Source: Gemmobacter aquaticus (GTDB lineage Bacteria; Pseudomonadota; Alphaproteobacteria; Rhodobacterales; Rhodobacteraceae). Taken from it: DNA of 64,000 bases. Below, piece by piece: positions 24,927 through 30,017 of this stretch. A program made the position numbers and the translations under genes. Positions within the stretch are counted from its first letter, which is position 1. Every line of letters begins with the position of its first letter. The notes below the pieces were generated by a model, which saw only the letters and a list, made by a program, of their open reading frames with translations, ran no database searches and had not been told where the DNA came from. The stretch covers positions 372,001-436,000 of the forward strand of contig NZ_VOAK01000011.1 of the NCBI RefSeq assembly GCF_007859075.1, given 5' to 3'.

Positions 24927-26810
24927 CTAGGCGTGTGGGCGTCGGCTCACCGCCTTGCTTGCGCGGGTCAGGCCGTGGCGGGCCATCCGGCGATGGATCG
25001 TGGTGCGGTCAACGCCAAGCGCCTCGGCCACGGCCGAGATATTCCAGCCGTGCTGGTTCAGCACATGGCGCAACATGGCCGGGGTATCGGCGCGAGGGGT
25101 GGGGCCAACGTCCCACAACTCTGGCGGAAGCTGCGCCAGACCCAGATGAACGCCCGAGGCAGGGCAGGGGGCGTAGCTTGTGGCGATGGACTGGGCCATT
25201 GCTTCCAGTTCGTGCAGGTTGCCCTGCCACGGATGGCGGGTCAGGGCAGAGGCAGCGGCGGTTTCGAAGGTGACGGGGCAGCCGAGTGCCTGACCAAAGA
25301 CCCGCCCTGCCAAGGATACCAGGTCCTGCCGCTGTGCCAACGGGGGCAGGGTCAGCCGATACCCCGAAAGGCGGTGAAACAGATCGCGCCGCAGGCTGTC
25401 GGTCTGTGCTGACCCACGACTGGTGACGATCACGCGCGCGGTCGTGGTCCTTTCGCGCAGCGCGCCAACCGGACGGAAGCGGCGCTCGGCGATCAGGCTG
25501 ACAAGCCGTGCCTGCAGGCGCGGGGGCAACTCTTCGAGATTGTCGAGCACAAGCGTTCCGCCCTCGGCCGAGGCGATGAGGCCCGCCTCATGTCCACGCG
25601 CGTCGCCGCGACCGAACAGCACCGCCGCTTCGTCTTCCCCGATTGTCTCGCAGGCAATGGTGACGAACGGCCCACGTCTGCCAGTCGCGTGGATTGCCCG
25701 CGCAAGCGTCGACTTGCCGCACCCGCTTGGGCCTTCGATCAAAAGGGGCACATCGCGAGGCGCCAGCGCTGCAGCCTGTTCCGCGATCCGGCGCATCACC
25801 GGATCATCGCCTGCAAGCTGGCGCAGTTCGGGCGACAGGGTCCGCGCGGGTTCGGCCCGTGGCGCGGGGGTGCGGCGCGGTTCGATGGCATGGGCAAAAA
25901 GACGATAGCCGTCACGGGTTTCGATCAGCCGGTCGCGTGCGGCATGCTGTCGGGTCAGCCCCTCAAGCGTGTCGATGTCCAGATCAAACACCTCTGACAC
26001 ATGGCGACCGATCAGCGTAGGGCCGTGGCGCCAGTCCTGACCCAGAACCCGCGCCATCAGTCGCGCGGCACCATTGGTCATGCCGATCACGCGGCCCCCT
26101 GCATCAAGCCGCAGTGCTGCCTGCGGGTCGACATCCAGAAAGTCGGGGCTTCCCGCCAGCCGCAGCACCCAATCGGCGCGGCTTTCGGCCATGATGTTCG
26201 CCATCTCGATCCGCCGCGCGGTCTGCCGCACGAGGTTGAGTGCGAGCAATTGGCTGGTGCGCGCCACGGGCGAGGACAGGAGCGAGATATCCAGCACTGC
26301 CGCCAGTCGTCCGGCCGTGTCATAGATCGGTGCGGCGGTGCAGGACAGTCCGCCATGCGTGACGTCGAAATGGTCGCTCTGGTGGATGATCAGCGGCTCG
26401 CCCGTCTCGATACAGGCGCCAAGGGCACAGGTGCCCGCCCGCGCCTCGGACCATTCCGCGCCGAGGTAGAGACCAGACCTGCGCAGTTCGGCCTTGTGGC
26501 TTTCCTCGCCAAGATACTCGACGGTCACGCCGCAGCCATCGGACAGAAGCAGGACATAGTTCTGGCCCGCGACAAGGCGGTAGAGGTCATCGATCCCCGA
26601 CCGTGCGATGCGGATCAGATCCTCGGACCGCTGGCGATGCTGGCGCAGGGCGGCGTCCGGCACGATATAGGCCTCGGACCGCGCCGTCGGGTCGAGCCCG
26701 TGCTTCTCAAGGCAGCGCAGCCAGCTTTCCACGACGATGGGATCACGGCTTTCGCTGCCGTGCTGTGCGACGATCTCGATCTCGCGGATGTGCTCGACAT
26801 CGGTCTGCAT
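24927..26810 (-). CDS. AcoR-like bacterial enhancer-binding protein (GAF-AAA+-Fis) lacking the GAFTGA loop
   Basis: A 627-residue transcriptional activator. The N-terminal half is a GAF-type sensor (about 75-210; 'GTCALGACIETGEPLIIHQSDHF' is typical of AcoR relatives) plus a PAS-like stretch. The AAA+ domain (about 325-540) has Walker A EGPSGCGKSTLAR, Walker B GGTLVLDNLEELP (Asn for the usual Glu) and 'DLFHRLSGYRLTLPPLAQR'. The loop after LFG, where sigma-54 activators have GAFTGA, reads RGDARGHEAGLIA and is shorter, so sigma-54 contact looks lost. The C-terminus is a Fis helix-turn-helix (NISAVAEALGVDRTTIHRRM). It is divergent from the ADH and flavin monooxygenase genes, its probable targets. 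Confidence 0.92.
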   Translation of the reverse strand: MQTDVEHIREIEIVAQHGSESRDPIVVESWLRCLEKHGLDPTARSEAYIVPDAALRQHRQRSEDLIRIARSGIDDLYRLVAGQNYVLLLSDGCGVTVEYLGEESHKAELRRSGLYLGAEWSEARAGTCALGACIETGEPLIIHQSDHFDVTHGGLSCTAAPIYDTAGRLAAVLDISLLSSPVARTSQLLALNLVRQTARRIEMANIMAESRADWVLRLAGSPDFLDVDPQAALRLDAGGRVIGMTNGAARLMARVLGQDWRHGPTLIGRHVSEVFDLDIDTLEGLTRQHAARDRLIETRDGYRLFAHAIEPRRTPAPRAEPARTLSPELRQLAGDDPVMRRIAEQAAALAPRDVPLLIEGPSGCGKSTLARAIHATGRRGPFVTIACETIGEDEAAVLFGRGDARGHEAGLIASAEGGTLVLDNLEELPPRLQARLVSLIAERRFRPVGALRERTTTARVIVTSRGSAQTDSLRRDLFHRLSGYRLTLPPLAQRQDLVSLAGRVFGQALGCPVTFETAAASALTRHPWQGNLHELEAMAQSIATSYAPCPASGVHLGLAQLPPELWDVGPTPRADTPAMLRHVLNQHGWNISAVAEALGVDRTTIHRRMARHGLTRASKAVSRRPHA

Positions 26811-26908
26811 GGGTGCCCTCCGGCCCGGCCCCTGAAGGGGCGGACCCGCGTGATCCTAGCCCACATTCCCCTGTCATAGAACCTACCCATGACGGGGGCG
26901 CAGCATCG

Positions 26909-26968
26909 TGCCGCACTGCGGCAAAGGTGTTGCGGCCCGGTGCAACAGTTGCCGCACTTGATGCAACA
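26909..26968. promoter_or_regulatory. Cluster of inverted and direct repeats, candidate activator binding sites
   Basis: The gap between the regulator and ADH genes holds TGCCGC-ACT-GCGGCA (26909-26923, perfect palindrome) and TGTTGC-N8-GCAACA (26928-26947, perfect). There is also a second TGCAACA exactly 21 bases after the first (26941 and 26962) and a second TGCCGCAC 41 bases after the first (26909 and 26950). Helical-turn spacing and the distance upstream of the ADH start fit enhancer sites for the divergent Fis-type regulator. Binding is inferred. Confidence 0.6.
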
Positions 26969-26997
26969 GGTGTTTCCGGCAAGCCATTGAAATCACG

Positions 26998-27012
26998 TGG
27001 CTCGCGTTTTGC
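26998..27012 (+). promoter_or_regulatory. Sigma-54-like -24/-12 promoter of the ADH gene
   Basis: TGGCTCGCGTTTTGC has GG and GC exactly 10 bases apart and matches the RpoN consensus TGGCACR-N4-TTGC except at one position. The predicted start near 27023 is 47 bases upstream of the ADH ATG. Its presence conflicts with the missing GAFTGA loop in the neighbouring activator. Confidence 0.5.
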
Positions 27013-27069
27013 GTTTCGTCCCTGTCGCGCAAGCGGCCACCCTGTCTCTGCATTCGAGGAGGAGACAGA

Positions 27070-28140
27070 ATGAAGGCCCTGCGTTTCCATGCCGCCAAAG
27101 ATCTGCGTATCGAGGAGATCGCGGCGATTCCCGCCCCCGGCCCCGGTCAGGTGGCGATCCGGAACCGGTTTGTCGGCATTTGCGGCACGGATCTGCACGA
27201 ATATGCCTACGGCCCGATCTTCATCCCGACGGCGCCGCATCCCTTTACCGGCGCCCATGGCCCGCAGGTTCTGGGGCACGAGTTCGGCGGCGTCGTCACC
27301 GCAGTTGGTGCCGGTGTGACCCATGTCGCCGTGGGCGACCGCGTGTCGGTCCAGCCGCTGATCATGCCACGGTCGGGTGACTACTTTGCCGATCGTGGCC
27401 TTTTTCACCTGAGCGAGAATCTGGCGCTTGCCGGACTGAGCTGGGTGTCCGGCGGCATGGCCGAGGCAGCGCTGCTCAATGACTATAACGTGGTCCGCAT
27501 CCCTGACAGGATGAGTGACGAGGAGGCAGCTCTGGTCGAGCCCACCGCCGTCGCCGTCTATGCCTGCGACCGCGGCAAGGTTACCGCCGGCCATTCGGTG
27601 TTGATCACCGGCGCGGGGCCGATCGGCATCCTGACCCTGCTGACCGCAAAGGCCTTTGGCGCGACCACCCTGTTCCTGTCCGATCTGAACGACACCCGGC
27701 TGGAGCTTGCCCGGAAGATGCTGCCCGGCGTCATCACGCTGAACCCCAAGCGCGACGACATCGGGGCCGCGGTGCGGGCCGCGACCGAGGGGGGTGTCGG
27801 CTGTGATGTGGCTCTGGAATGCGTGGGCAATGAACGCGCGCTGCAAGGCTGCCTCGATGCGGTGCGCAAGCAGGGCACCGTCGTGCAGGTCGGGCTGCAT
27901 CCTGGCAATTCGGGTCTGCACTGGCACACGGTCACCTTCAAGGACGTCGACCTGCGTGGATCGTGGGCCTATCCGACCCACCTCTGGCCGCGCGTCATCG
28001 ATCTTATCGCTTCGGGCGCGATCCCGGCGGCGCGGGTGGTGACACGCAAGATCCGTCTCGATCAAGCCGTTACCGAGGGCTTCGATGCGCTTCTCGATCC
28101 GGCGGGGACGCAGCTCAAGATCCTTATCGATCTGACCTGA
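27070..28140 (+). CDS. Zinc-dependent alcohol dehydrogenase, 2,3-butanediol dehydrogenase-like
   Basis: A 356-residue MDR-superfamily enzyme. The catalytic zinc site includes Cys in GICGTDLHEY (about 37) and GHEFGG (about 76). The Rossmann motif is ITGAGPIGILTLL near 180. The structural-zinc cysteines of classical ADHs are missing; that lobe reads QPLIMPRSGDYFADRG, a form found in a butanediol-dehydrogenase-like subgroup. It probably oxidises a secondary alcohol or acetoin/diol with NAD. The ribosome site GAGGAGG is strong. The flavin monooxygenase follows after 74 bases in the same direction, and the AcoR-like regulator is divergent, which is usual for acetoin, butanediol or acetone/propanol operons. 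Confidence 0.9.
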   Translation: MKALRFHAAKDLRIEEIAAIPAPGPGQVAIRNRFVGICGTDLHEYAYGPIFIPTAPHPFTGAHGPQVLGHEFGGVVTAVGAGVTHVAVGDRVSVQPLIMPRSGDYFADRGLFHLSENLALAGLSWVSGGMAEAALLNDYNVVRIPDRMSDEEAALVEPTAVAVYACDRGKVTAGHSVLITGAGPIGILTLLTAKAFGATTLFLSDLNDTRLELARKMLPGVITLNPKRDDIGAAVRAATEGGVGCDVALECVGNERALQGCLDAVRKQGTVVQVGLHPGNSGLHWHTVTFKDVDLRGSWAYPTHLWPRVIDLIASGAIPAARVVTRKIRLDQAVTEGFDALLDPAGTQLKILIDLT

Positions 28141-28214: not shown

Positions 28215-30017
28215 ATGCTTGATACAACATCCGAAGGCGCGCTTGCGGCGCTGGTGGCTGACCTTGAACGCGCATTGGTCGCGCAGGATGCCGATGCAGT
28301 GGCAGGCCTGTTCCTTGAAACAGGCTTCTGGCGCGATCTGGCGGCCTTTACCTGGAATCTGAAGACCTGCGAGGGGCGCAGCCAGATTGCCGAAATGGCC
28401 CGCGCGCAACTGCCACGGATTGCACCCAAGGCCCTGTCGCTCGACCCGACTGAGACGGTGGCCGAGGCGGGCGGTGTGACCGAGGGCTGGCTGGTGATCG
28501 AAACCGCTGCCGGGCGCGGCCAGGGCTATATCCGCATGAAGGAGGGCAAGATCTGGACGCTGCTGACCACCTTGCACGAGTTGAAGGGGCATGAAGAGCC
28601 GCGTCGCTTTCGCAGGCCCATGGGGGCAGAGCATGGCCACGATCCAAAGCGCCAGACGTGGAAGGAAAAGCGCGAGGCAGAAGCCGCACGCCTGGGCCAT
28701 GAAGAGCAGCCCTATGTGCTGGTGATTGGCGGCGGGCAGGGCGGTATCGCCCTTGGCGCGCGGTTGCGCCAGCTGTCGGTTCCGACCATCGTGATCGACA
28801 AGCACCCGCGCCCGGGCGATCAGTGGCGCAACCGCTACAAATCGCTCTGCCTGCATGATCCGGTCTGGTACGACCACCTGCCTTACATCCCCTTCCCGGA
28901 CAACTGGCCGGTCTTCGCCCCCAAGGACAAAGTGGGCGACTGGCTGGAGATGTATACCAAGGTCATGGAGTTGAACTACTGGTCCTCGACCACCGCGAAG
29001 TCGGCCAAGTACGACGACGCCAAGGCAGAATGGACCGTCATTGTAGAACGCGACGGGCAAGAGATCACCCTGCGCCCCAAGCAGCTGGTGCTGGCAACCG
29101 GCATGTCGGGCAAAGCGAATGTGCCAAAGTTCAAGGGGCAGGATGTCTTCAAGGGCGAGCAGCAGCACTCCAGCCAGCACCCCGGCCCCGATGCCTATCG
29201 TGGCAAGAAGGTTGTGGTCATCGGTGCCAACAACTCGGCCCATGACATCTGCGCCGCCCTTTGGGAGAACGGTGCAGATGTGACGATGGTGCAGCGCTCG
29301 TCCACGCATATCGTCAAGTCCGACAGCCTGATGGAGGTCTGTCTGGGTGGGCTCTATTCAGAACAGGCGGTGGCGAACGGGATCACGCATGAAAAGGCCG
29401 ACATGATCTTCGCAAGCGTGCCCTACAAGATCATGGCCGATTTCCACGTCCCGCAATACGCCGAGATCAAAAAGCGCGACGCCGACTTCTATGCCGCGCT
29501 TGAGAAGGCGGGCTTCATGCTCGACTTCGGCGATGACGAAAGCGGGCTCTTCATGAAGTATCTGCGCCGCGGGTCGGGCTATTACATCGATGTGGGTGCC
29601 TGCGATCTGATCATCGACGGGTCGATCAAGCTGCAATCGGGCAAGGGCATCAGCCATCTGTCGGAAACGGCGGTCGTGCTGGACGACGGAACCGAACTGC
29701 CCGCCGATCTGGTGGTCTATGCCACGGGCTATGGGTCGATGAATGGCTGGGCTGCCGATCTGATCAGCCAGGAGGTTGCGGACAAGGTGGGCAAATGCTG
29801 GGGCCTCGGGTCCAATACCACCAAAGACCCCGGTCCGTGGGAGGGGGAAGAGCGCAACATGTGGAAGCCCACGATGCAGCAGGGGCTGTGGTTCCACGGT
29901 GGAAACCTGCACCAGTCGCGGCACTATTCGCGCTATCTTTCGCTGCAGCTCAAGGCCCGGTACGAGGGGATCGACACGCCCGTCTGGGGGCTTGAAGCGC
30001 CGCATCATCTGGCCTGA
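28215..30017 (+). CDS. Flavin-containing monooxygenase with N-terminal NTF2-like domain
   Basis: A 600-residue protein starting at ATG 28215, with GGGAGGAGA as ribosome site. Residues 1-125 look like an NTF2/SnoaL-like domain (DLERALVAQDADAVAGLFLE; ETAAGRGQGYIRMKEGKIW). The rest is an NAD(P)/FAD monooxygenase: FAD site VLVIGGGQGGIALGARL (about 175), motif FKGEQQHSSQH (about 315; the FMO/BVMO form is FxGxxxHxxx[Y/F/W]) and a second nucleotide site VVVIGANNSAHDIC (about 335). It probably oxygenates a small substrate with NADPH and O2, for example Baeyer-Villiger oxidation of the ketone made by the ADH. That coupling is inference from the operon. Confidence 0.9.
   Translation: MLDTTSEGALAALVADLERALVAQDADAVAGLFLETGFWRDLAAFTWNLKTCEGRSQIAEMARAQLPRIAPKALSLDPTETVAEAGGVTEGWLVIETAAGRGQGYIRMKEGKIWTLLTTLHELKGHEEPRRFRRPMGAEHGHDPKRQTWKEKREAEAARLGHEEQPYVLVIGGGQGGIALGARLRQLSVPTIVIDKHPRPGDQWRNRYKSLCLHDPVWYDHLPYIPFPDNWPVFAPKDKVGDWLEMYTKVMELNYWSSTTAKSAKYDDAKAEWTVIVERDGQEITLRPKQLVLATGMSGKANVPKFKGQDVFKGEQQHSSQHPGPDAYRGKKVVVIGANNSAHDICAALWENGADVTMVQRSSTHIVKSDSLMEVCLGGLYSEQAVANGITHEKADMIFASVPYKIMADFHVPQYAEIKKRDADFYAALEKAGFMLDFGDDESGLFMKYLRRGSGYYIDVGACDLIIDGSIKLQSGKGISHLSETAVVLDDGTELPADLVVYATGYGSMNGWAADLISQEVADKVGKCWGLGSNTTKDPGPWEGEERNMWKPTMQQGLWFHGGNLHQSRHYSRYLSLQLKARYEGIDTPVWGLEAPHHLA

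Follow-up and report, generated by a model that had tools for sequence, protein, structure and literature searches.

The regulator encoded at 24927-26810 of the analysed DNA (the window, a 64,000-nucleotide stretch of the Gemmobacter aquaticus genome) is probably a local, ligand-responsive regulator of a divergent gene pair for a zinc-type alcohol dehydrogenase (ADH) and an FMO-like flavoprotein (FMO), which descends from a sigma-54 enhancer-binding protein (bEBP) and now most likely activates RNA polymerase of the sigma-70 family. Its independence of sigma-54 is strongly supported.

The regulator protein and its orthologues

The regulator gene is a minus-strand reading frame that translates into 627 residues with zero internal stops; its features (window coordinates) are listed below.

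24927..26810, minus strand: AcoR/DhaR-like regulator with GAF, AAA+ and Fis HTH parts, 627 aa (ORF translation, Pfam, NCBIfam)
26199..26621, minus strand: GAF sensor domain, residues 64-204 (Pfam PF01590, E 8e-12)
25707..25733, minus strand: Walker A GPSGCGKST, residues 360-368, Lys kept (translation, alignment)
25563..25610, minus strand: shortened L1 region without GAFTGA, residues 401-416 (alignment to GAFTGA-bearing orthologues)
25539..25553, minus strand: Walker B LVLDN, residues 420-424, with Asn in place of the catalytic Glu (translation, alignment)
24978..25076, minus strand: Fis-type HTH (HTH_8), residues 579-611 (Pfam PF02954, E 2.1e-9)

The Sigma54_activat domain (PF00158, residues 333-486) was recognised in Pfam with 99.4 bits (cut-off 20.2). 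Of the features of a functional sigma-54 enhancer-binding protein, the homologous AAA+ domain is present, whereas GAFTGA and the Walker B DE are absent. Between LFG (residues 398-400) and GGT (417-419) the window regulator carries the 16 residues RGDARGHEAGLIASAE; the same interval of the aligned GAFTGA-bearing relative L056 holds the 22 residues YLPGAFTGASAKGRKGLIEQAD. A preliminary description of this DNA had seen here a shorter, unrelated loop in place of GAFTGA: the segment is indeed shorter and GAFTGA is gone, but its end, GLIxxAxGG, is homologous in both proteins, and the change amounts to a six-residue deletion plus divergence. The Walker B reading of that description, DN and not DE, was confirmed by the translation (Asp423-Asn424). 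Sensor II reads GNLHEL in the window regulator versus mostly GNLREL in the relatives. In an AlphaFold2 model built from 29 sequences (mean pLDDT 87.8, pTM 0.52) two short strands are predicted in the L1 region (401-403 and 406-408); among PDB structures, the model matched NtrX, ZraR, FleQ and NtrC1 best, the TM-score over the whole query being at most 0.37 because these matches cover mainly the AAA+ part.

The family sample comprised 115 proteins, from 80 loci (the best 80 of 322 relatives found) and loci of further relatives; in the second sample of relatives, 35 genomes had a match and 30 of these yielded loci, and the loops read do not include those of G275, G360, G095 and G148. A GAFTGA-type loop (counted as such were GAFTGA, GAFSGA, GAYTGA, GTYTGG, NAFTGA, HAFTGA in L123, NSFTGA and the like) was aligned in 71/115 proteins. 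The preliminary description had proposed to search homologues for the same deletion, and one unique to this sequence was to count against it; in fact 44/115 family proteins lack GAFTGA, namely 18 of clade 1 (window regulator included), 25 of clade 2, in which the loop deletions are larger than in clade 1, and L132. A single-sequence artefact, chance or a sequencing error can be ruled out, the same shortened loop being present in orthologues of other genomes. All GAFTGA-less proteins come from the family of the window's organism or from Paracoccaceae/Roseobacteraceae; GAFTGA-type members occur within the former family as well (L126, L127, L140, L141).

According to a tree of the N-terminal part (65 rows), at least two loop changes are needed on the starred branches, and trees that need one single change made up 0% of 200 bootstrap trees. 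A single loop loss, with the 42 GAFTGA-less rows (long branch L132 among them) held together, was rejected (p-AU 0.0035). From the rows, L015 (a copy of L045) was dropped, and L017, L094, L140, L141 and L072 were dropped from the final tree. At least two losses of the loop have occurred.

The catalytic Walker B Glu parallels the loop: it is found in 71/71 GAFTGA-bearing versus 1/44 GAFTGA-less proteins, L132 being the exception. Clade 1 shows N (10), K (7) or G (1) at this position, and in 23/25 proteins of clade 2 the Walker B Asp is gone too. The Walker A Lys, in turn, is kept in 71/71 and 43/44 proteins, respectively. With the catalytic Glu gone, nucleotide binding at most would therefore be expected of the window regulator, and the motifs suggest ATP binding without hydrolysis.

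In pairs that are 80-90% identical N-terminally, identity of the AAA+ domain without L1 was 52% in clade 1, 60% in clade 2 and 70% among GAFTGA-bearing proteins (L017, L094 and L132 left out). The AAA+ dN/dS was 0.11-0.35 in five GAFTGA-less pairs (with a dS of 1.65, near saturation, for the pair containing the window's gene) and 0.14 and 0 in two GAFTGA-bearing pairs, the former value falling inside the GAFTGA-less range; the AAA+ domain of the GAFTGA-less proteins is, on account of these ratios, under constraint. L017 and L094, apparently one sequence, have a frame break near residue 135, either real or a fault of a fragmented Gemmobacter assembly; the frames of all other orthologues read are open. 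Decay of the AAA+ domain or of the whole gene, leaving no regulatory role of note, would fit the lower AAA+ conservation at equal N-terminal identity, the loss of the Walker B Asp in clade 2 and this frame break; set against the open frames elsewhere, the retention of half-sites and gene linkage (see below) and dN/dS values of no more than 0.35 in the domains of all seven pairs, it is very improbable.

RpoN and loop state

In the window's genome (assembly of 3.99 Mb, 99.97% complete) RpoN gave no match with PF04552 or PF04963, profiles that yielded matches in 4/14 control genomes, E. coli and Caulobacter included; a two-sequence RpoN profile from relatives (one canonical, one divergent sequence) reached only 12 bits (E 0.14). 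The expectation of the preliminary description, that the protein should not open sigma-54 promoters, is thus supported by all three profiles. By reading of 13 matches, the genome encodes seven bEBP-type proteins including this regulator (L013, a 48-position match, left out of the tally), none of which has GAFTGA. One of them, L001 (G000:C1:1483916-1484410), which reads as a DctD-type response regulator, has GAFPGA in its place. Broken GAFTGA motifs are described for the sigma-54-less Jannaschia and Fusobacterium in the available part of PMC3162934.

In the best-80 set, RpoN was over the cut-off in 8/13 GAFTGA-less genomes (best 128-181 bits) and not over it in 5, compared with at least 211 bits in 13/13 GAFTGA-bearing genomes tested (of 67). 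Among the further relatives, 15/22 GAFTGA-less genomes with loops read had RpoN over the cut-off, three of them at 199-207 bits; of the four GAFTGA-bearing genomes, two reached 214-227 bits and two, with a divergent RpoN alone (122 and 136 bits), carry the NSFTGA loop. In the first genome sample, RpoN was found in 6/10 orthologue-bearing genomes. A divergent RpoN persists in many GAFTGA-less genomes and a near-canonical one in some. Loss of the loop is therefore not a simple sequel to loss of RpoN, and an explanation along that line is weakened. In most cases the loop state tracks canonical RpoN together with the target promoter, not total RpoN absence.

In three relatives (G006, G001 and G003) a divergent RpoN adjoins another GAFTGA-less AcoR-like gene (L153, L154 and L150, respectively); against canonical RpoN its Region I shows a gap, 2-8 residues long according to how the sequences are aligned, and the AcoR-like proteins L153 and L154 have Walker A and LDE intact. 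The neighbours may possibly constitute a co-diverged sigma/activator pair. As a conserved arrangement, a variant RpoN with a GAFTGA-less activator was rejected: RpoN neighbours the AcoR-like gene in L150, L153 and L154, whereas the ~1.5-kb flanks read around 15 further homologues contain none. By coordinates, RpoN lies ~5 kb from the homologue in G185 and G299. The RpoN of G007 has the same Region I gap, yet AcoR-like genes a few kb away carry GAFTGA. A second family of AcoR-like paralogues in Rhodobacteraceae (L153, L154, L160-L174) lacks GAFTGA in 17/17 aligned members.

Target genes, presumed operator and promoter elements

The presumed targets and the elements of the intergenic region are as follows.

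27070..28140, plus strand: zinc-type ADH, divergent presumed target (PF00107/PF08240, linkage)
28224..30017, plus strand: FMO-like flavoprotein, presumed target, start codon assigned by reading (PF00743/PF13738, linkage)
26928..26947, plus strand: perfect palindrome TGTTGC-N8-GCAACA, presumed operator (sequence, relatives' alignment)
26963..26968, plus strand: further presumed operator half-site GCAACA (sequence, clade-1 alignment)
26987..26992, plus strand: candidate -35 element TTGAAA, exactly 18 bp past the half-site
26998..27012, plus strand: -24/-12-like word TGGCTCGCGTTTTGC, near-consensus, 72 bp before the ADH start

FMO and/or ADH adjoins the regulator in 75/80 loci of the best 80 and in 31/36 loci of further relatives; the genes are divergent in clade 1 and collinear in Rhizobiales and in the clade-2 loci with a nearby target. 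L047, L044 and L054 gave no match to ADH, and the operon appears to have lost this gene there; in L047 the first ADH codons alone seem to be left before FMO. The palindrome is the sole exact copy of TGTTGC-N8-GCAACA in the window's genome. Half-sites of this kind (TGTTGC/GCAACA, in some loci TGTGGC/GCCACA) are present in both the GAFTGA-bearing and the GAFTGA-less group, arranged as TGTTG-N10-CAACA in 9/14 clade-1 regions and as GCAAC-N4-GTTGC in 35/62 GAFTGA-bearing regions. The boxes probably represent the operator of the window regulator.

The loop states differ in their promoters. A -24/-12 site (starting with TGGC, within 160 bp of the target, score of at least 12) precedes the target in 60/63 GAFTGA-bearing loci, compared with 2/17 loci of clade 1 (the window and L053) and 0/24 of clade 2; under a looser rule (350 bp, no more than 2/100 shuffles as good) the word was found in 61/62 versus 5/14 loci with and without GAFTGA. 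These counts left out the loci without a nearby ADH/FMO of >60% identity (L072, L077, L079, L111 and L116 of the 80) and, from the further relatives, L126, L130, L132, L140 and L141. On independent pairs, loop state and promoter were concordant in most pairings, with only two pairs, too few for significance.

The score of TGGCTCGCGTTTTGC before ADH was matched by 0/100 shuffles; across the window, TGGCNCGN4TTGC has one match versus 0.42 expected, and 35/100 shuffles have one. In a genome with no detected RpoN the word may be a relic or a coincidence. A sigma-54 promoter that is still activated, with a variant RpoN and a changed contact, could draw on the correct orientation and 72-bp position of this word, as well as on the divergent RpoN beside another GAFTGA-less AcoR-like gene in G006, G001 and G003. 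It is, however, hardly credible: the three profiles detected no RpoN in the window's genome, the word TGGCTCGCGTTTTGC is absent from the seven relatives aligned with the window region, and no clade-2 locus has a -24/-12 site within the 160 bp.

By contrast, the distance between the last half-site and a -35-like word is constant in clade 1, exactly 18 bp in 15/17 loci (L017 not included); half-site, 18 bp and -35-like word together occurred in 9/3400 mononucleotide shuffles, for a list of -35-like words that was chosen after inspection of the clade-1 alignment. In GAFTGA-bearing loci the last half-site and the -24 element are separated by 27 different distances among 59 loci, 26 of which have 72-73 bp (3/62 loci are without a site by the pattern used). 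A consensus sigma-70 promoter had 0 matches in 26800-27120, and the clade-1 alignment likewise shows no evident -10 element. Sigma-54 activators act remotely and are driven by ATP, whereas activation of sigma-70 polymerase is proximal and proceeds by recruitment. That no RpoN was found, and that the spacing is a constant 18 bp, points to action on sigma-70-type RNA polymerase.

The same intergenic region, common to both transcription units, is where a TyrR-like protein acting mainly as a repressor would sit, keeping the operon, and perhaps also the regulator gene itself, shut when unliganded and being released by the ligand. With the motor lost, repression would be the simplest activity left, and Caulobacter NtrC represses at hvyA and sciP despite its missing GAFTGA (PMC10274813, available part). 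Repression is nevertheless rather unlikely, in that the last clade-1 half-site keeps its 18 bp upstream of the -35-like word with no overlap, and the region 26800-27120 yielded no consensus promoter in need of repression. Activation is the more probable reading.

Known GAFTGA-less regulators and the proposed mode of action

GAFTGA-less, sigma-54-independent regulators are already known, an AcoR-like one included. E. coli DhaR, named as a GAFTGA-less, sigma-70-dependent regulator in the part of PMC3162934 at hand, is likewise AcoR-like with sensor, AAA+ and HTH parts; it serves the dihydroxyacetone kinase operon, unlike the window regulator with its other neighbouring genes. DhaR (NF008485) was the best NCBIfam match of the window regulator, although at 204.9 bits not over the cut-off of 551, and the DhaR structure 4lrx was matched over residues 23-239 (E 3e-8). 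The N-terminal domain of VpsR differs from that of the window regulator. VpsR of Vibrio cholerae senses c-di-GMP (title of 7v2b, the structure found at rank 47 among the structural matches of the model); in the excerpted PMC10274813 it is a GAFTGA-less bEBP at sigma-70 promoters for which ATP is said not to be required. TyrR is also counted with the GAFTGA-less sigma-70 kind (PMC3162934 and PMC10274813, in the parts available).

From the same part of PMC10274813, the NtrC proteins of R. capsulatus and Caulobacter are alphaproteobacterial bEBPs with GAFTGA deleted from L1 and are reported at sigma-70 promoters; the former is said to need ATP binding but not hydrolysis, the latter its Walker A and B residues. 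Both have a receiver domain, in contrast to the window regulator with its GAF domain and without a catalytic Walker B Glu. The parallel to R. capsulatus NtrC within the AcoR branch, suggested by the preliminary description, consequently holds for the missing GAFTGA, but here the residue for ATP hydrolysis is gone as well and DhaR precedes as an AcoR-like case (PMC3162934, as excerpted). With the bEBP-derived sigma-54-independent regulators as a whole (DhaR, TyrR, HupR, R. capsulatus NtrC, VpsR) the window regulator shares bEBP homology and the lost GAFTGA. Its GAFTGA-bearing relatives (Rhizobiales, Burkholderiales and others) have the same domains at ~44-50% identity, the same half-sites and the same neighbours, and differ in the Walker B DE and the -24/-12 site described above. 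For a link to BmoR of Thauera butanivorans, no butane monooxygenase gene was recognised among the ORFs listed beside homologue L118. Among the matches listed by searches of open-licence PMC papers, none was on this regulator family; what appears to be new, as far as our searches show, is that loop, catalytic Glu and -24/-12 promoter were repeatedly lost together while half-sites and neighbours were conserved.

We propose that the window regulator, derived from a sigma-54 enhancer-binding protein, would sense a small molecule with its GAF domain and use its Fis HTH to bind the TGTTGC/GCAACA boxes of the intergenic region. Having lost its sigma-54 loop and its catalytic Walker B Glu, the AAA+ domain would no longer remodel sigma-54 and would serve as a scaffold for oligomerisation or nucleotide binding. 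Transcription in this genome would have to rely on a sigma-70-family holoenzyme, which the protein most likely activates at a fixed proximal position beside the -35-like element. The ligand, the sigma factor used and the lack of ATP hydrolysis are presumptive parts of this scheme. Extended to the Rhodobacteraceae, the proposal becomes tentative: separation of an AcoR-like bEBP from sigma-54 may have happened two or more times, with the L1 loop, the Walker B Glu and the -24/-12 promoter lost on every occasion and sensor and half-sites retained. The AAA+ domain would have turned into a nucleotide-binding scaffold that no longer hydrolyses, and sigma-70 RNA polymerase would be activated through it, in clade 1 at a fixed distance of 18 bp before the -35 element.

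A Pfam domain alone is, as a warning, insufficient to annotate such proteins as sigma-54-dependent. A switch from sigma-54 to sigma-70 is seldom visible because promoter and activator must change together. Here one family has loop-bearing and loop-less regulators beside the same genes and half-sites, and the steps are therefore comparable and could be tested by swaps of loops and promoters. If the proposal is true, the family would represent a replicated natural experiment in which one promoter was moved from sigma-54 to sigma-70 control.
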